Assembly (NCBI GenBank): GCA_003158455.1
Contig: PMJO01000051.1
Coordinates: 5,208 to 64,796 of the forward strand
DNA length: 59,589 bases
Direction of reading: 5' to 3'
DNA from: Myxococcales bacterium
GTDB taxonomy: Bacteria > Myxococcota_A > Polyangia > Fen-1088
In this document: in pieces, positions 26,981 through 43,988 of the stretch
How positions within the stretch are numbered: position 1 is the first letter of the stretch
How the letters are laid out: the number at the start of each line of letters is the position of its first letter
Notes under the pieces: generated by a model
What the model was told of the DNA's origin: nothing
The model's input: the letters and a program-made list of their open reading frames with translations, nothing else
Databases searched by the model: none
Position numbers and translations under genes: made by a program

Positions 26981-28183
26981 TCACGCGGGTTCGGGATCAC
27001 CTGGCCGGCGCAGACGGGTCAGGGTGGAACCGGCAGCCGGGCGGTAGCGCTTGCGGTAGTAGGTGTCGATGAAGGCCGGGCAGCTTTCGGCCACAAGCAG
27101 GCGGGCCACCTCGTCGGCAGCCAGGATGAACGACTCTTCGATTTCGCACAGGGCCTGGTTGATGTGACCCAACTCGCCGGTGAGCGCCACGTGGCGACAG
27201 CCGCAGTGGCTCTGGCAACGGTCGCGCAGGGCACAGGGCGCGCAAATTTCCTCCACGCGATCCTTGGCCTGTTGCAACTCGGCCAACCGTTTTTCGTCGA
27301 AGCCTGAATCCAGGGTTCCGATGACCAGCTCGTCATCGCGATCCTCGCCGATCATCTGCGCGCAAGGATACAGGCGGCCGGTGGGCGCGACGGCGAAGGC
27401 GCGGCCCGCCAGCGTACAGCGCTCGGGACAGGGGATGCCCTCGTTCAAATGGGTCAGGATCTTGCCGCGCAGGGGTTCCAGCGACAGCACGCGGCCGTTG
27501 CGAAACGCCTCGATCCACACCGCGCCCGCGTCGCGCAGGCCTTGGCGCAGCCCCGCGATGGACGCTTCGGTCCAGGGGGCGCGGAAGTCGGGTCCCAAAG
27601 TGACCTGTGCGGGCTGCAGGTCCATCAGCGTGCGCACCACCTCGCCCAGCCGGGGGGCGGTATCGGGCCGCACCACCGCGACCAGGCGAAAGGCAATGCC
27701 TGCCTGGCGCATGCGTCCCAGGTTGGCCACGATCCCCGCGAAGCTGCCCTGGCCCTTGTCGTCCACGCGGTGGGAATCGTGAACCGCAGCCGGACCATCC
27801 AGCGACACATACAGGGTGAAGTCGCGGGGTGGCGACAGCAAGGCGAGCACCCGATCGTCGGCCAGGGTGCCGTTGGTGTTCATCACGTAGCGCAAGCGCG
27901 GACGCGGCTCGGGTCGTGTTTGCACAGTCGCTTCCACGTAGGCCAGCGTCTCCTCGATGAACCCTGGATGCAACAGCGGCTCGCCGCCGAAGAACGAAAC
28001 GTCCAGTTGTGCCGGCCGGTTCGCCAGCGCCAAGTCCACCGACCGCCGCATCACCTCGGACGGCATTAGCCGGCTGAACTTCCCTCCGTTGTAGCAGTAG
28101 CTACAGCGCAGGTTGCAGTCGTGATCGACGAAAAGGGTCAGTTCCACTGGGCTGGCGTTTTCCGTCGGCCGCCGCGCGATCAA
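26981..28183 (-). CDS. radical SAM/SPASM peptide-modifying enzyme
   Basis: 400 residues. The radical SAM cluster motif CxxxCxxC is CNLRCSYC near residue 22-29, followed by FFGGEPLLHP (the GGE motif that contacts SAM). The C-terminal SPASM region has all expected cysteines: a Gx4C element (GRLYPC), CAPCALRDRCQSHC (Cx2Cx5Cx3C) and a later Cys (ALCEIEE), for two auxiliary 4Fe-4S clusters. SPASM enzymes include anaerobic sulfatase activators and RiPP maturases. Its ATG overlaps the stop of a short lipoprotein-like peptide by 4 bp (ATGA), and a second paralogous peptide lies upstream. No sulfatase is nearby, so modification of those peptides is the favoured role. Confidence 0.9.
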   Translation of the reverse strand: MIARRPTENASPVELTLFVDHDCNLRCSYCYNGGKFSRLMPSEVMRRSVDLALANRPAQLDVSFFGGEPLLHPGFIEETLAYVEATVQTRPEPRPRLRYVMNTNGTLADDRVLALLSPPRDFTLYVSLDGPAAVHDSHRVDDKGQGSFAGIVANLGRMRQAGIAFRLVAVVRPDTAPRLGEVVRTLMDLQPAQVTLGPDFRAPWTEASIAGLRQGLRDAGAVWIEAFRNGRVLSLEPLRGKILTHLNEGIPCPERCTLAGRAFAVAPTGRLYPCAQMIGEDRDDELVIGTLDSGFDEKRLAELQQAKDRVEEICAPCALRDRCQSHCGCRHVALTGELGHINQALCEIEESFILAADEVARLLVAESCPAFIDTYYRKRYRPAAGSTLTRLRRPGDPEPA

Positions 28184-28464
28184 GGAATACCGGCAGGGTC
28201 GGGCGGCGCGAGCTCGATTGGGGCAGGGTCGGCATCGGAGGCATCCGGCGCTGTCTCGGGCGGTGGGCCTGCATCGGGCACGCCGATGTCAGGAACGAGA
28301 AACGCGGGAGGCCCGTCGAACGGCACCGGCGGTGATCCGGCTTCCTTGGGCGTACACCCCGAGGACAGGCACAAACACAGACCCGCAGCCGCCAGGGTCG
28401 GATAGCCAGGGAAGGTGATGCGGGAACGCGGCTGGGGAGCATTGGCGGACAGGCGCTTGTCCAT
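28180..28464 (-). CDS. short lipoprotein-like peptide A, candidate substrate of the radical SAM enzyme
   Basis: 94 residues. N-terminus MDKRLSANAPQPRSR, then FPGYPTLAAAGLCLCLSSGC, a short hydrophobic stretch ending in Gly-Cys like a lipobox. The rest is Pro/Asp/Ala-rich (PPVPFDGPPAF, PDIGVPDAGPPPE). A GGAGG Shine-Dalgarno precedes the ATG. The stop overlaps the radical SAM start. The N-terminal ~35 residues are shared with the upstream peptide B, as expected for a common leader or export signal. No family recognised. Confidence 0.7.
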   Translation of the reverse strand: MDKRLSANAPQPRSRITFPGYPTLAAAGLCLCLSSGCTPKEAGSPPVPFDGPPAFLVPDIGVPDAGPPPETAPDASDADPAPIELAPPDPAGIP

Positions 28465-28491
28465 CTGTGTCCTCCAGTATGACTCCAGAAT

Positions 28492-28932
28492 CTACTGGGG
28501 GATAGGGGCACCGCCTCCGCCGGAAGGATCTGGGAAAGCGGGCGCAAGGTCGGCAGCGTCCTGCGGGGATGGTGGCTCCAGCACATCCGGTGCTGCCGCA
28601 TCCGGGGTCGGTGAAAGGGGTTCCGGTGCGCCGGCATCTTTGGCCGAGGTCGGAGTCTCGTCGAAGGGCGGTCCCACGAAGCCCGCGAGCGCGCCACCGG
28701 TGCCGGTCGTGCCACCGGTGCTGGTCGTGCCACCGGTGCTGGTCGTGCCACCGGTGCTGGTCATGCCACCGGTGTTGGACCCTGTGGTGTTGGCCGGATC
28801 GTTCGGGTTGGCACCGCGGCCGCACCCACCAGAAAGGCACAGGTACAGCCCTGCTGCCGCCACGGTGGGGTAGCCGGGGAACGGGAAGTGAGAGCGCGGC
28901 TTTGGGGCACTGGCAGAGAGACGCTTGGACAT
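28492..28932 (-). CDS. short lipoprotein-like peptide B, paralogue of peptide A
   Basis: 146 residues from the ATG at 28932, preceded by GGAGAACAAGA. N-terminus MSKRLSASAPKPRSH, then FPGYPTVAAAGLYLCLSGGC, almost the same as peptide A. Between the cysteine and the tail lies a (STGGTT)n stretch of five units encoded by a perfect 18-bp repeat. The tail (FVGPPFDETP, AKDAGAPEPLSPTPDAAAPD) parallels the tail of peptide A. It is separated from A by 27 bp, in the same direction and ahead of the radical SAM gene, so one operon is likely. Confidence 0.7.
   Translation of the reverse strand: MSKRLSASAPKPRSHFPFPGYPTVAAAGLYLCLSGGCGRGANPNDPANTTGSNTGGMTSTGGTTSTGGTTSTGGTTGTGGALAGFVGPPFDETPTSAKDAGAPEPLSPTPDAAAPDVLEPPSPQDAADLAPAFPDPSGGGGAPIPQ
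28694..28783 (-). repeat. 18-bp tandem repeat, about five units, in peptide B
   Basis: The plus-strand unit GCCACCGGTGCTGGTCGT is repeated with little change; it encodes the (STGGTT) hexapeptide series. The copy number is probably variable between strains. Confidence 0.75.
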
Positions 28933-37954: not shown

Positions 37955-39145
37955 ATGTTTGCCCGCTTCGCACGTGCACAGGACGCAGCCTCTCGGGTGG
38001 TAGTGGTGGCCATCCTGGGCGGGGTGCTGCTGGCGGCGTGGTCGGCCTGGTTTTTCCTGGCGCGGGTGGGACTCTACGAGGTCAGTCGCTCGGCCCGCCT
38101 GGAAGTGGCAACCGCCCCATATGACGTCGACTCGCCGGTAGCGGCCCGTTTGCTGCACAGTGCTTTGGTGCTGGACCGGCAGGTGCAGCAAGGCGAGATT
38201 CTGGTCGAACTGGATGCGGAAGCATTCCGTCTGGAACGAGCGGGCGAGGAGAGCCGACTGGCGACGCTGGGTCCGCAGATCGAAGCCTTGCGCGAGGAAC
38301 TGACCTCGGAGGAACAGGCTATGCGCGGCGAGGGGCGCGCCAGTGCGGCGCAGGTGAATGAGGCGCGCGCCCGCCTCCGCGCCTCGAATGCGGTGGCCGA
38401 ACAGAAAGAAGCAGAGCGGGCCAAGATCCAATCGCTGCACGAAAAGCGGCTGGTGGCAACCCTGGACCGCGACCGCCTGCAGGCCGAGGTGCAACGCCAG
38501 AACGCCGAGACCGAAGCGGCGCGCGTGCAGGTCGGCCGAGTGGGCAACGAAGGCGCGGTCAAGGTGAGCGAGCGCAAGGCGCTGATCGCGGGTTTACAGG
38601 CGGACGTGGCTCGCCTGCAGAGCGAGCGCGCGGATGCCGAGAGCAAGGTGCGCATCCTCGATCAGAAGATCGAATTGCACCTGATTCGGGCGCCGATTGC
38701 CGGCCGCATCGGGAACATGGTCAACCTGCGTGCCGGCGCCATGCTGGCCGAACGCACCCGCCTGTGCACCATCGTTCCCACCGGCGGGCTGCGCGCGGTG
38801 GCCTTCTTCGACCCGGCGACCGCCGCCGGGCGGGTGCGCACCGGGCAGAGTGCGCGCCTGCGCATGTTCGGTTTCCCCTGGACCAAGTACGGCATGCTGC
38901 TCGCCGATGTCGATCGCGTGGGCAACGAGCCGAAGGATGGCTTGATTCGGGTGGAGTTGGTCTTGCGCTCGCCCCAGCGGACGAACATTCCTTTGCAACA
39001 TGGCCTGCCGGGCAGCGCCGAGGTCGAGGTGGAACGGGTTTCGCCGTTTGCCCTGGTACTAGATGCGGCCGGCCGGTTTCTCATGAGCGTTCCGGGAAAT
39101 GCCGGGTCCGTCCCGCCCACCCCTGCAGCCATATCAGACAAATGA
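37955..39145 (+). CDS. HlyD-family membrane fusion protein of a peptide exporter
   Basis: 396 residues. One membrane helix near the N-terminus (VVVVAILGGVLLAAWSAWFF) is followed by a lipoyl/beta-barrel half, a long coiled-coil hairpin (about 85-225; EREREK-type heptads), the second lipoyl half (IRAPIAGRIGNMVNLRAGAM) and a barrel domain. These adaptors bridge ABC exporters to the outer membrane. Its stop overlaps the start of the C39-ABC gene (ATGA). No TolC-type protein lies nearby. Confidence 0.88.
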   Translation: MFARFARAQDAASRVVVVAILGGVLLAAWSAWFFLARVGLYEVSRSARLEVATAPYDVDSPVAARLLHSALVLDRQVQQGEILVELDAEAFRLERAGEESRLATLGPQIEALREELTSEEQAMRGEGRASAAQVNEARARLRASNAVAEQKEAERAKIQSLHEKRLVATLDRDRLQAEVQRQNAETEAARVQVGRVGNEGAVKVSERKALIAGLQADVARLQSERADAESKVRILDQKIELHLIRAPIAGRIGNMVNLRAGAMLAERTRLCTIVPTGGLRAVAFFDPATAAGRVRTGQSARLRMFGFPWTKYGMLLADVDRVGNEPKDGLIRVELVLRSPQRTNIPLQHGLPGSAEVEVERVSPFALVLDAAGRFLMSVPGNAGSVPPTPAAISDK

Positions 39146-41841
39146 GCATGGCTGTTTCCGAGGACGAGGACGAGTCTGAAAGCGCGCGCGAGAGGCGGCA
39201 TTTTTTCGCCCACGAGGTGGTGCAGACCTCGGGCATGGACTGCGGCCCCGCCGCCCTGAAATCCCTGCTGGAAGGTTTCGGCATTAGTGCCCACTACGGC
39301 CGGTTGCGCGAGGCCTGTCACACCTCGGTGGACGGATCGTCCATCGACACGCTGGAGGAGTTGGCGGGAAAGCTGGGCCTGGACGTCACCCAGATGATGA
39401 TGCCGGTGGAGCACGTTCTTCTGCGCGAAGCCGAGACGTTGCCCGCCCTGGTCGTGGTCAGGCTGCCGTCGGGCCTGACCCACTTCGTGGTCGTGTGGCG
39501 GATGCTGGGGCCGTGGGTCCAGGTCATGGACCCGGCCCGCGGCCGGCGCTGGATGAGCAAGCTGGACTTCGTCCGCGACCTGTATGTGCACGAGATGCCG
39601 GTCCCCGCGGCGGATCTTGGGGCGTGGACGCGCGAGCCGGGCTTCCTGGATCCGTTGCGGCGCCGCCTTCACAGGCTGGGCGTCTCCGATGCAGGTCGGC
39701 GCATTGCAACCGCCGCAGCCGGCGAAGACTGGCGTCCCTTGCTTGCACTGGAGGCCTGCGCCCGGGCGACCGAGCGCCTGCAAGGCGGCAAGGTGATTTC
39801 CCGCGGGCGTGGCGCGCGAGCTTTTGCCTATCTTCTGGCAGACGCGACCGAGCGGGGGGCGGCGGGGCTGGTCCCGGATGCTTTGTGGACCGCGCGCCCC
39901 GCTGCGCAGCCCGAGGGGCAATCCACGCTGCTTCTGCGCGGGGCCCTTGCCCTGCGGGTGTCCGGCTTGGCCGCGGCCAAGCCAGCGCAAGCGCTGCCAC
40001 CCGAGCTTGCGGCGGTGCTGGCCGATGACCAGTCGGGCCCGGCGCGCAAGCTGGTCGAGTTGCTACGTGCCGACGGAGTTCTGCGCTTCTTGCCCATCCT
40101 GGCCGGGTTGGCGCTGGCCGGGGTCGGGACCGTGGCTGAGTCGCTGCTTTTCCGCGGCGCCATGGAGATTGGCCAACGCCTGGCGCTTTTCGAGCAGCGC
40201 CTGGCGGCGGCGGGTGCGCTGCTGGTGTTTTTGGCCGCGCTCTTCTTCGTCGAATGGCCCCTGGCCCGTGCCATGTGGAGCGCCGGCAGCAGGCTGGAGA
40301 TGCGCCTGCGCCAGGCTTTTCTGCGCAAGCTGCCCCTGCTTGGGGATCGCTATTTTCAGAGCCGGCCCATCTCCGACATGGCCGAGCGGGCGCATCTTCT
40401 GCACTGGCTGCGCCTTCTGCCGGGGCAGGGCGGTCAGCTCGTGCGCACGATCTGCGAGATGATCACCACCACCGCCGCCGTGATCTGGCTGTATCCGCCG
40501 GGCGCGCCCTTGCTTCTGACCATGGTAGGGCTGATGCTGGTTCTGCCGCTTTCTTGCCAGCCGGCACTGGTAGAACGGGATCTGCGCATGCGCGGCCACG
40601 CCGGCGGGCTGGCACGTTTCTATCTGGACGCGCTCTTGGGCTTGTCGGCTATCCGCGCGCACACGGCGGAGCCGGCCCTGCGCGCCGAGCATGGCGGCCG
40701 CCTGCGCGAGTGGGCGCGCGCGGCCCGGGACGCCACCCGCCTGGCGGTTCTGATCGATACCGCACAGGGCTTGCTGGGATTCGGTCTGGCGGCGGTCGTG
40801 GTTTTTCGCTACTTGGTGTCAGCCTCGGGTTCGGGCTGGGCGATCTTGATCGTGTATTGGGTCTTCATGCTGCCGTCCCTGGGTCAGGAGATCGCATTTC
40901 TGATTCAGCAATACCCACAACATCGCAACGTGACCTTGCGCGTGTTGGAGCCATTGAGCGCGCCGGAGAGCGCAGTCGAAGCCCACGACAATTCTCTTCC
41001 TCAGTCGGCTGCCGCCGGGGCTGCGGTGGACCTGCGCGACGTGCGCGTGATAGCCGCGGGCACCGAGATCCTGGCGGTCGACAAGCTCACTTTCGCCGCG
41101 GGCGAGCATGTGGCGATCGTGGGCGCTTCGGGCGCGGGCAAGTCCAGCCTGGTCGGCCTGCTGCTCGGCTGGTACCGGCCCGACGCCGGCGTGGTGCGGG
41201 TTGACGGCCAGGAGCTGCGCGGTCGTTGGCTGGAGGAGCTGCGGCGCCAGACCCTGTGGGTGGATCCCGCGGTGCAGTTGTGGAACCGGTCGCTGCTGGA
41301 GAATCTTCGTTTCGGCAGCGATGGCGAGCATCGGGCGGTGGGCGACGCGGTGGATGCCGCGCAGCTCGACGAGGTGCTGGCCCGTCTGCCCATGGGTCTG
41401 CAGACGCCCCTGGGCGCGGGCGGGGCCCTGCTTTCGGGCGGCGAGGGCCAGCGGGTGCGGCTGGGGCGCGCCATCTGCCGGGGCGCCGCCCGCCTGGTGA
41501 TCTTCGACGAGCCCTTCTGCGGGCTGGAGCGTTCGCGCCGCGAAGCCTTCCTGCAGGCCGCGCGCTTGCGCTGGGCACCGGCTACCTTTCTGTGTATCAC
41601 CCACGACATCAGCCAGACCCGGGATTTTCCGCGCGTGCTGGTGGTGGACAAGGGACGTGTGGTCGAGGACGGCGCGCCCAAGCAACTGGCCGTCCAGTCG
41701 GGCTCGCGCTACGCGCGTTTGCTCATGGCCGAGGTGCGCGCGCGGGCACGTCTGGACGGGCCCGAGTGGCGGCATTTGCTGCTCGACAAGGGACAGATTG
41801 TGGAGCGCGCGCCGTCGCGTGCGCGGGGAGAAAGCACGTGA
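39142..41841 (+). CDS. peptidase C39-containing ABC exporter
   Basis: 899 residues. The N-terminal C39 cysteine protease has Gln28 and Cys34 (VVQTSGMDCGPAALKSLL), His114 (GLTHFVVVW) and Asp130 (VQVMDPARGR), a complete catalytic set that cleaves after double-glycine-type leaders. An additional ~150-residue segment separates it from the membrane domain (about 300-600). The nucleotide-binding domain has Walker A GASGAGKSS (about 659), signature LSGGEGQRV (about 763), Walker B LVIFDEP and the H-loop THD. It should both process and export a peptide. It is coupled on both sides by 4-bp overlaps. Confidence 0.92.
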   Translation: MSMAVSEDEDESESARERRHFFAHEVVQTSGMDCGPAALKSLLEGFGISAHYGRLREACHTSVDGSSIDTLEELAGKLGLDVTQMMMPVEHVLLREAETLPALVVVRLPSGLTHFVVVWRMLGPWVQVMDPARGRRWMSKLDFVRDLYVHEMPVPAADLGAWTREPGFLDPLRRRLHRLGVSDAGRRIATAAAGEDWRPLLALEACARATERLQGGKVISRGRGARAFAYLLADATERGAAGLVPDALWTARPAAQPEGQSTLLLRGALALRVSGLAAAKPAQALPPELAAVLADDQSGPARKLVELLRADGVLRFLPILAGLALAGVGTVAESLLFRGAMEIGQRLALFEQRLAAAGALLVFLAALFFVEWPLARAMWSAGSRLEMRLRQAFLRKLPLLGDRYFQSRPISDMAERAHLLHWLRLLPGQGGQLVRTICEMITTTAAVIWLYPPGAPLLLTMVGLMLVLPLSCQPALVERDLRMRGHAGGLARFYLDALLGLSAIRAHTAEPALRAEHGGRLREWARAARDATRLAVLIDTAQGLLGFGLAAVVVFRYLVSASGSGWAILIVYWVFMLPSLGQEIAFLIQQYPQHRNVTLRVLEPLSAPESAVEAHDNSLPQSAAAGAAVDLRDVRVIAAGTEILAVDKLTFAAGEHVAIVGASGAGKSSLVGLLLGWYRPDAGVVRVDGQELRGRWLEELRRQTLWVDPAVQLWNRSLLENLRFGSDGEHRAVGDAVDAAQLDEVLARLPMGLQTPLGAGGALLSGGEGQRVRLGRAICRGAARLVIFDEPFCGLERSRREAFLQAARLRWAPATFLCITHDISQTRDFPRVLVVDKGRVVEDGAPKQLAVQSGSRYARLLMAEVRARARLDGPEWRHLLLDKGQIVERAPSRARGEST

Positions 41842-43988
41842 GCCGCCCGGGCCAGCCCACAGGCCCCGCGGCTGCGGCTTGGCCGGCGGGCAGGCTGGGC
41901 GACGCTCTGGTCGCCGTCGCTGAGCGCCTCTTCCCCCAGCGTCGGGCGCCCGTGCTTCGCGATCCCCCGGCCGGCATTGCCGACACCGTCGCGCTCGCGG
42001 GTTTCGTGGAGGACGCCGCCTATCAGCTCGGGCTGGAGGTCGCGGCGGTGGATGCACGCGTGGCGACCGTGCGCGGGCTTTTGGGCGAAGGCGGCCCGGT
42101 GCTGGTGGCCCGTCAGGGTTCGGGGCCGTCGCAGTTTCTGGTCCTGCTGGCCTGCGACCGGCGGGGCCGCGTGGCCGAAGTCTTGGGCTCTGACCGGCGC
42201 GTTTATCGTCTGGCCGCGGCCGAAATCGACGTATGGCTCGACGATGAACAGCGCGGTCCGGCCGGGGAGGGGTTTGCTGGTTTTGCTTCGGCGGTTGGGC
42301 TCGCGGCGCGCGATCAAGAAGCGACCCGCCGGATTCTGGCCGGCGCGGCCGGGCCCAGCCGACCGGCGGTGGGCTGGGCGCTTAACCCCGCCGCCAGTCG
42401 GCTTGGCGAAGGCCTGCAGCAAGCGGGCGCCCGGCGTGTGGTTGCCACCGCGCTGGTTTCGTATCTGGTCGGCTTCGCGCTCATGGTGGGCTCGTGGTGG
42501 TTGCTTGGGGCGGCGGCGCTGCAGGGCCACTTGGAACGGGGCTGGCTTTGGGCGTGGGCGATGTTGCTGCTGACTTTCGTGGCGTGTCGGGGCGGCGGGG
42601 TGTGGGCAGCCGGCCGTTTGGCGGTGCAGGTGGGCGGAGTGGTGCGCGAACGCTTGCTGGAAGGCATTTTGCGCCTGCCCGCCGACAAGGTGCGGGTCAA
42701 GGGCGTCGGTCACCTGCTCGGCACGGTGCTGGAGGCGGACGCCCTGGATGCTTTCGCGCGCACTGGCGGGCCGGTGTTGCTCGCCGATGTCTTCCAGTTC
42801 TTGTTTGGCGCTGCGGTGTTGGCCCTGGGTGCGGCGCCCATCCTGCACCTCGCGCTGTTGCTTGGCTGGCTGGTGCTGGCCGCCGGACTGGTGCGCCGTC
42901 TCTACCGGCGGTTGCTCGACTGGTCCGACGCTCGCCTGGGGCTCACCGACGAGCTGGTGGAAACCATGGTGGGTTATCGAACCCTGGTGGCGCAACAGCC
43001 GGCGGCGCAGCAACAGGAAGGCGAGGACCGGGGCCTAGCCGTATACGGCCGCAAGCAGGGCGCCCTCGATCGCGAGATGGCGCGGCTGTCGGTGCTCTTG
43101 CCACGAGGTTGGCTGGTGTTCGGTGTGGCGGCGCTGGTTCCCGGGTTTGCCACCGGCGCGGCGCAAAGCACTGCGCTGGCGGTGAGCCTGGGCGGCGTCT
43201 TGATGGTGTACCTGGCCTTTCGCCGCGTGGCCTTGGAGACGGGGCCGGGCATGGCAGCAGCCTTTCTTGGCTGGAAGCGCACGCGGACTCTGTTGGAGGC
43301 CGCGTCGGAGAAACGCGAAAACGCGGAGAGCGTGGCGGTGTTGCCCAGCGAAGTGGACGAAGCGAGCGCAGGCCGGCGCGGGCTGCTGGTGGGCCGCGAC
43401 GTCAGCTTCAGCTACCCGGGTCGGCTGGACCCGGTGCTGCGCGGATGCAACATCGAGATTCGACGCCGGCAGCGCATTCTAATCGAAGGACGATCGGGCT
43501 CGGGCAAGTCGACTTTGGGCGCGCTCCTGTGCGGTCTGCGCCAGCCTTCGGGTGGTCTGCTGCTGCTGGGAGGATTCGACCATCACAGCCTGCGGCCGGA
43601 GCGCTGGCGTCAGCGCGCCGCCGGTGTGCCGCAGAGCCACGAGAACCACATCTTGTCTGCGCCGCTGTTGTTCAATATAGCGATGGCGCGGCGCTGGCCG
43701 CCGCGCCAAGAAGACGAGCAGGAGATCGAAGCTATCTGTCGCGAGCTGGGGCTTTCGGACTTGATAGCGCGCATGCCGGGAGGGCTGCAGCAAATGGTGG
43801 GGGATAGTGGCTGGCAGCTTTCGCAGGGCGAGCGCAGCCGCGTTTACGTGGCCCGGGCGCTTCTGCAGCAAGCGGACTTGCGCGTGCTCGACGAAAGTTT
43901 TGCCGCGCTTGACCCGGAAACCATGGACCGAGTGCTCGAGTGCGTGGTGAGACGCTCGGAGACCCTGGTGGTGGTTTCGCACGCCTAG
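41838..43988 (+). CDS. second ABC exporter, degenerate N-terminal domain, ends directly after the H-loop
   Basis: 716 residues from a GTG overlapping the previous stop. The first ~190 residues resemble a C39-like domain in layout (GGPVLVARQGSGPSQFLVLL, VAEVLGSDRRVYRL) but lack the catalytic Cys motif. A membrane domain follows (about 200-500), then an ATPase with Walker A IEGRSGSGKST, signature LSQGERSRV, Walker B LRVLDES and the H-loop VVVSHA. The chain stops right after the H-loop; related ATPases continue 30-60 residues. HlyD, C39-ABC and a second ABC together match the layout of NHLM/NHLP-type peptide export clusters. An 89% copy of the last 61 bp is found at 46227-46287. Confidence 0.88.
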   Translation: MSRPGQPTGPAAAAWPAGRLGDALVAVAERLFPQRRAPVLRDPPAGIADTVALAGFVEDAAYQLGLEVAAVDARVATVRGLLGEGGPVLVARQGSGPSQFLVLLACDRRGRVAEVLGSDRRVYRLAAAEIDVWLDDEQRGPAGEGFAGFASAVGLAARDQEATRRILAGAAGPSRPAVGWALNPAASRLGEGLQQAGARRVVATALVSYLVGFALMVGSWWLLGAAALQGHLERGWLWAWAMLLLTFVACRGGGVWAAGRLAVQVGGVVRERLLEGILRLPADKVRVKGVGHLLGTVLEADALDAFARTGGPVLLADVFQFLFGAAVLALGAAPILHLALLLGWLVLAAGLVRRLYRRLLDWSDARLGLTDELVETMVGYRTLVAQQPAAQQQEGEDRGLAVYGRKQGALDREMARLSVLLPRGWLVFGVAALVPGFATGAAQSTALAVSLGGVLMVYLAFRRVALETGPGMAAAFLGWKRTRTLLEAASEKRENAESVAVLPSEVDEASAGRRGLLVGRDVSFSYPGRLDPVLRGCNIEIRRRQRILIEGRSGSGKSTLGALLCGLRQPSGGLLLLGGFDHHSLRPERWRQRAAGVPQSHENHILSAPLLFNIAMARRWPPRQEDEQEIEAICRELGLSDLIARMPGGLQQMVGDSGWQLSQGERSRVYVARALLQQADLRVLDESFAALDPETMDRVLECVVRRSETLVVVSHA

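Follow-up and report, generated by a model that had tools for sequence, protein, structure and literature searches.

A putative radical SAM/SPASM maturation system for tagged, exported lipoproteins in Myxococcota

The window analyzed here, a stretch of 59,589 nucleotides of contig PMJO01000051.1 from a soil Myxococcales bacterium (assembly GCA_003158455.1), contains an operon that is likely to be the home locus of a radical SAM/SPASM system by which exported lipoproteins are matured. The operon consists only of the genes for two short lipoproteins, A and B, and for the enzyme. Judged from the sequences, the tag in the leaders of the lipoproteins, the short core motif in their mature parts and the enzyme belong together, and the enzyme probably modifies tagged surface lipoproteins chemically. 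A bolder reading, to which we give moderate confidence, goes further: a SPASM enzyme without a fused RRE would read a tag on a Sec or Tat signal peptide and install a new modification on G-x5-aromatic sites of many lipoproteins scattered over the genome, the whole being a regulon for protein maturation and not a natural-product cluster, and the dialect of the tag would differ between Myxococcota lineages. A preliminary description of the locus had proposed a RiPP-like system with an export or lipidation signal, and this proposal is supported by the co-occurrence of leader and enzyme described below, while the modification itself is what we infer. The three genes are as follows.

26981..28147, minus strand: radical SAM/SPASM enzyme, 388 aa, GTG start; its ORF runs on to TTG 28183
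28180..28464, minus strand: protein B, 94 aa, tagged lipoprotein and predicted substrate; leader shared with A, orthologue intact in G011, leader profile E 9.5e-15
28492..28932, minus strand: protein A, 146 aa, tagged lipoprotein and predicted substrate; leader shared with B, orthologue intact in G011, leader profile E 9.7e-15

All three ORFs (enzyme 26981-28183, B 28180-28464 and A 28492-28932) are on the minus strand. The arrangement is conserved, since the same A-B-enzyme order is intact in the congener G011 (PMLB01000070.1), the enzyme of which shows 87% identity to that of the window. GTG 28147, which lies about 32 bp beyond the end of B, is the most likely start of the enzyme, because the 'MELTL' codon is the start in 19 close-clade loci (ATG in 15 and GTG in 4) and no in-frame start precedes it in the G011 enzyme. 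The overlap of 4 bp between B and the enzyme, to which the preliminary description had drawn attention, needs TTG 28183 as the start; this codon is probably unused, and the overlap is probably not real. The operon, as had been pointed out earlier, is devoid of a dedicated leader protease or exporter, and a signal peptide is present instead. An HlyD adaptor, a C39-peptidase ABC transporter and a second ABC protein are encoded about 9 kb from the operon (37955-43988, plus strand). A link between this peptide-export-like cluster and the operon was considered and rejected, as several unrelated genes lie between them and the scores are far below the NHLP cut-offs.

The enzyme belongs to the radical SAM/SPASM superfamily according to its CX3CX2C motif, its SPASM cysteine pattern and its fold. 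The cysteine set is complete, and the catalytic cysteines (C11, C15 and C18) and most of those of the SPASM domain (C244, C262, C302, C305, C311, C317 and C334) are invariant among 52 homologues. Pfam PF04055 matches the enzyme with an E-value of 3.1e-16, and the AlphaFold model (pLDDT 92.9) comprises a radical SAM barrel and a SPASM domain. The neighbours found by Foldseek in the PDB are peptide-modifying SPASM enzymes; the closest solved folds are CteB (5wgg, the best match), anSME (4k37) and ChlB with a bound precursor leader (9gm3), with TM scores of about 0.75-0.78 at an identity of about 20%. The match to CteB begins at residue 99 of its chain, the preceding N-terminal part being missing from the window enzyme. 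Neither an extra N-terminal domain nor a fused RRE is found in the window enzyme, which starts directly at the radical SAM domain according to the start codon, the AlphaFold model and the CteB alignment; an RRE is not present in every RiPP enzyme. The best NCBIfam profile is PapB (NF047865), which is aligned over most of the enzyme with 171.7 bits against a cut-off of 340, and every maturase model among the matches listed falls below its cut-off, including that of the QhpD family (TIGR03906, 123.8 against 453) and those of the triceptide/cyclophane maturases (58-70 bits against 310-445). These fold neighbours, the profile scores below the cut-offs and the lack of an N-terminal extra domain place the enzyme, on sequence and model, among the peptide-modifying SPASM enzymes, in no named family and with no RRE fused to it.

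The two short proteins with a shared N-terminus next to a complete SPASM enzyme, the starting point of the preliminary description, have turned out to be real: residues 1-38 of A and B are 74% identical (E 1.1e-11), and this type of N-terminus has no other copy in this genome. The following elements are distinguished within it on the basis of A1, an alignment of 15 leaders from the clade of the window.

28864..28905, minus strand: leader tag of A, PKPRSHFPFPGYPT, residues 10-23 (A1)
28396..28437, minus strand: leader tag of B, PQPRSRITFPGYPT, residues 10-23 (A1)
28822..28863, minus strand: signal h-region and lipobox of A, VAAAGLYLCLSGGC, with Cys37, invariant in A1
28354..28395, minus strand: signal h-region and lipobox of B, LAAAGLCLCLSSGC, with Cys37, invariant in A1

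P12, P19, Y21, P22 and the lipobox Cys are invariant in A1, and a Sec or lipoprotein signal is predicted in the precursors, the h-region and the lipobox Cys being conserved in the 15 leaders. The part shared by A and B (PKPRS..FPGYPT, the h-region and C37) has the character of a tag joined to a signal peptide. A leader profile was searched against 318 genomes of the class, which bears directly on the proposed check of whether leader and enzyme co-occur. Matches with E<1e-4 are found in 16 genomes, each of which has a close-clade enzyme; conversely, the leader is found in 16 of the 17 genomes having an intact close-clade enzyme, and the remaining genomes of the class give no match at this threshold. 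The peptides are thus not widespread without the enzyme among these 318 genomes, a distribution that the preliminary description had named as one that would speak against the system. Part of this co-occurrence comes about by construction, as A1 was partly trained on leaders beside the enzyme, and its independent part consists of the unlinked matches and the absence from other genomes. Roughly one match in two lies away from the enzyme, and more than 20 unlinked tagged genes outside the training set are confined to genomes with the enzyme. As far as the profile reaches, tag and enzyme are restricted to one set of genomes.

The notion of two substrates, which holds for the window, is incomplete for its relatives, which have up to about seven, many of them unlinked: about seven tagged genes are found in G519 and six in G542. 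The profile finds no match in G515. At L102 (G535:C50), an intact close-clade enzyme has no adjoining tagged gene, and tagged genes are present elsewhere in G535, an arrangement that supports action of the enzyme in trans. Decayed enzyme copies are seen in congeners, where L030 (G010) is without the 3' part, L033 (G008) has an internal deletion and L034 (G007) is without the 5' part; the leader profile finds no tag in these three genomes with a truncated or deleted enzyme. On this sequence record the enzyme/tag system is being lost within the genus, and assembly breaks may account for the decayed copies.

Homologues of the enzyme are found in 33 of 379 genomes of the phylum (E<=1e-35) and in 67 of 318 genomes of the class (E<=1e-45), about a fifth; the scan of genome contigs found three loci only. 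At 100 enzyme loci, ORFs bearing a signal were called by one rule both near and far from the enzyme. The dipeptide YP is present in the n-region of 29 of 51 exported ORFs beside the enzyme and of 3 of 100 controls (P 4e-14), and among predicted lipoproteins in 25 of 35 against 0 of 23 controls (P 1e-8); these P values are optimistic, the genomes being related. Under strict ORF criteria a YP partner is found at 28 of the 100 loci, and so not every homologous locus has one. The n-region element reads P-x-Y-P (motif EM score 92.7 against a shuffle maximum of 68.3). One list of partners was filtered on YP and is biased, as is part of the set behind the n-region motif, whereas the comparison of 29/51 with 3/100 is unbiased. 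Two or three partners occur in tandem at L071, L072, L076, L085 and L088, and Tat-like signals are carried by some partners (L069, L070, L072 and L085). The mature parts of the partners are mostly unrelated to one another, and the exported proteins adjoining more distant enzymes differ while bearing the same YP element. At two loci YP is replaced by FP. In the enzyme clades of L149 and L158 the tag has PEFP in place of PxYP, and Phe may stand in for Tyr. When A, B and ten partner proteins were compared with NCBIfam and Pfam, no genuine family match emerged, the matches being limited to weak Tat-signal and chance ones; a few further relatives yielded only the repeat NF033662 and a weak match to NF033768.

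Downstream of the lipobox, the parallel Pro/Asp-rich tails that had been noticed in A and B are not conserved as tails; what is conserved is a single short motif, which reads AGFVGPPFDE in A and AGSPPVPFDG in B. The relevant elements of the mature parts are listed here.

28657..28686, minus strand: predicted core site of A, AGFVGPPFDE (Gly84, Phe90), from the EM motif (LL 104-124 against shuffle maxima of 76-92)
28312..28341, minus strand: predicted core site of B, AGSPPVPFDG (Gly43, Phe49), from the EM motif
28495..28515, minus strand: C-terminal core remnant of A, GGAPIPQ, with the aromatic lost; GGAPIPY in the G011 orthologue
28693..28761, minus strand: Thr/Gly repeat of A, which the G011 orthologue does not retain as such

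The Thr/Gly repeat, formerly regarded as the distinctive core of A, looks like a linker. A motif search in 14 tagged substrates near the enzyme gives the core as [AP]-G-[DG]-[IA]-[AP]-x-P-[YFW]-[DE], with EM scores for widths 8 and 10 of 104 and 124, against maxima of 76 and 92 in 200 shuffles; further examples are GDIAYPYDAG, GGAPMPYDSG and GFAPNPYDAG. A test is provided by 27 unlinked tagged proteins, picked by the tag alone. In these, the regular expression that had been set in advance matches at 15 sites, where shuffles give 0.38 (maximum 4), and a looser form, G-x5-[YFW]-[DEQG], chosen after viewing the same proteins, finds 54 sites in 25 of the 27 against a shuffle mean of 11.3 and a maximum of 22. 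Gly stands at position -6 for 69 of the 111 aromatics in the unlinked tagged proteins, and for 10-30 at other spacings. Some sequences are from close relatives and inflate these counts, although the effect is large nonetheless. In 23 control lipoproteins from the same loci, the strict core has no site within 7,248 aa and Gly shows no preference for the -6 spacing. Over distant subfamilies, with one protein per locus, the core is weakly above chance (reached by 4 of 200 shuffles), and the claim of a core is therefore confined to the clade of the window. The substrates of L107 and L108 possess the tag and the lipobox and show no clear aromatic core.

This genome abounds in Gly/Pro/Thr-rich lipoproteins, and A and B might accordingly be ordinary paralogous lipoproteins lying by chance beside a SPASM enzyme that acts on something else. 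We regard this as very improbable and already largely refuted: adjacency and co-occurrence statistics speak against it, as do the control lipoproteins of the same loci, which are without the tag and the strict core, and the conservation of the operon in G011.

The precursor genes beside the enzyme, with their shared leader, and the short recurring core distinct from that leader are traits of the RiPP type. In the maturation pathway that we propose, the enzyme would bind the tag directly in the cytoplasm and apply radical chemistry to the core sites, where the aromatic residue or its neighbour is the most likely target. The modified protein would then be exported via Sec, or via Tat in some relatives, and would receive its lipid on the Cys of the lipobox; signal peptidase II would remove the tag, in this way taking the role of a leader protease. 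The mature lipoprotein would stay anchored in the membrane, with a flexible Gly/Thr/Pro linker presenting the modified motif. A single enzyme is probably responsible, in relatives, for several lipoproteins whose genes lie at other places in the genome. Tyr and Pro of the tag are more invariant across enzyme subfamilies than anything in the core, and it may be asked if the Tyr-Pro itself is the target, the signal peptide being modified, for example, to time or route export, with G-x5-aromatic an unrelated display or binding element. We consider this improbable, as such a modification would be lost with the cleaved signal peptide, and as the core tracks the tag even in unlinked genes, just as expected if the tag serves for recognition and the core is the target.

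The fate of the mature protein distinguishes the proposed maturation of surface lipoproteins from the production of a secreted RiPP (a signal, toxin or bacteriocin) that is cut from the lipoprotein and released, the lipoprotein being a carrier only. The cores are short, several per precursor and in some cases C-terminal (GGAPIPY, GDTATPY), as in multi-core RiPPs. Release is nevertheless unlikely in our judgement: the operon is without a protease or dedicated exporter, the substrates are many and dispersed in each genome, and the cores are embedded in proteins that are structural in their other parts, for instance acidic disulfide-repeat lipoproteins (L213, NF033662). The placement of cores in linkers and in such lipoproteins (L015 and L213) favours, as far as their sequences tell, surface display over a released product. 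In L213 and L015, tagged lipoproteins both, cores alternate with acidic double-disulfide repeats (NF033662 in L213), which are possibly calcium-binding. Larger tagged proteins are found at L193, L215 and L217; those of L193 and L217 end in a domain with weak AgmX/PglI-like similarity (NF033768), and a G-D-C-P-S-P-[FY]-E site is common to L215 and L217.

With regard to the chemistry, thioether formation of the sacti- or ranthipeptide type is unlikely in A and B, because their mature parts contain no Cys besides that of the lipobox. PapB, a ranthipeptide maturase, requires both Cys and Asp/Glu (CX3D) and is believed to rely on an RRE (PMC9413430), whereas the window system has neither a Cys-Asp/Glu pairing in the core nor a fused RRE. 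QhpD, which acts on QhpC, the gamma subunit of quinohemoprotein amine dehydrogenase, is alike in being a SPASM enzyme that modifies a leader-bearing protein in the cytoplasm before its export to the periplasm, but that system forms Cys-Asp/Glu thioethers and has a dedicated protease, QhpE, and an ABC exporter, QhpF (PMC7876137). The cores of the window clade contain a conserved aromatic residue within a short motif, and in this they are similar to the substrates of triceptide/cyclophane maturases; the residue at +2 after the aromatic is often Gly in the tagged proteins. In the SPASM enzymes of the GrrM, FxsB, YhhB and AmcB families, aromatic residues of short, repeated cores are involved, and the usual Omega-X-X cyclophane links the C-beta of the third residue, which Gly does not have. 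The frequent Gly at +2 may hence speak against a standard three-residue cyclophane. Triceptide/cyclophane precursors are not known to be lipoproteins.

Precursors with a Sec signal are described as rare among bacterial RiPPs and are best known for bufferins modified by MNIO, the only ones for which experiments have demonstrated that the natural host employs Sec (PMC12452194). The Sec signal peptide of bufferin-type precursors is itself the leader, and about 16% of Buf2 have lipoprotein signals (PMC12452194). Bufferins resemble A and B in their signal-peptide leader, in modification by a metalloenzyme before export and in diverse, sometimes long protein substrates; their enzyme, however, is a multinuclear non-haem iron oxidase (DUF692) that acts mostly on Cys together with a partner protein (PMC12452194). 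In the window, by contrast, the enzyme is of the radical SAM/SPASM type, no partner gene is seen, the cores are without Cys and a separate tag lies upstream of the h-region. A search of open-licence papers gave no account of this enzyme/tagged-lipoprotein system, and nothing relevant was found on the lipobox or twin-arginine together with radical SAM RiPPs. RiPP-like radical SAM maturation is a known kind of system, and its pairing with tagged, exported lipoproteins was not found described. If the proposed maturation is true, it would be a radical SAM counterpart of the MNIO-modified bufferins and their Sec route, acting on cell-surface lipoproteins and often in trans, and it would provide the logic of substrate choice for a SPASM group that 67 of 318 genomes of the class contain. 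It would also raise the question of how the tagged signal peptide is kept from the Sec machinery until modification is complete. The tag and target residues are given exactly and are hence testable.

In a distant clade of the enzyme (L095 and L096), long lipoproteins made of Cys-rich repeats serve as partners; DG[DG][MIV]xxC sites recur in them, their tag is of another dialect, RPV..Y....YP, and from their sequences they may represent a related system with other chemistry.
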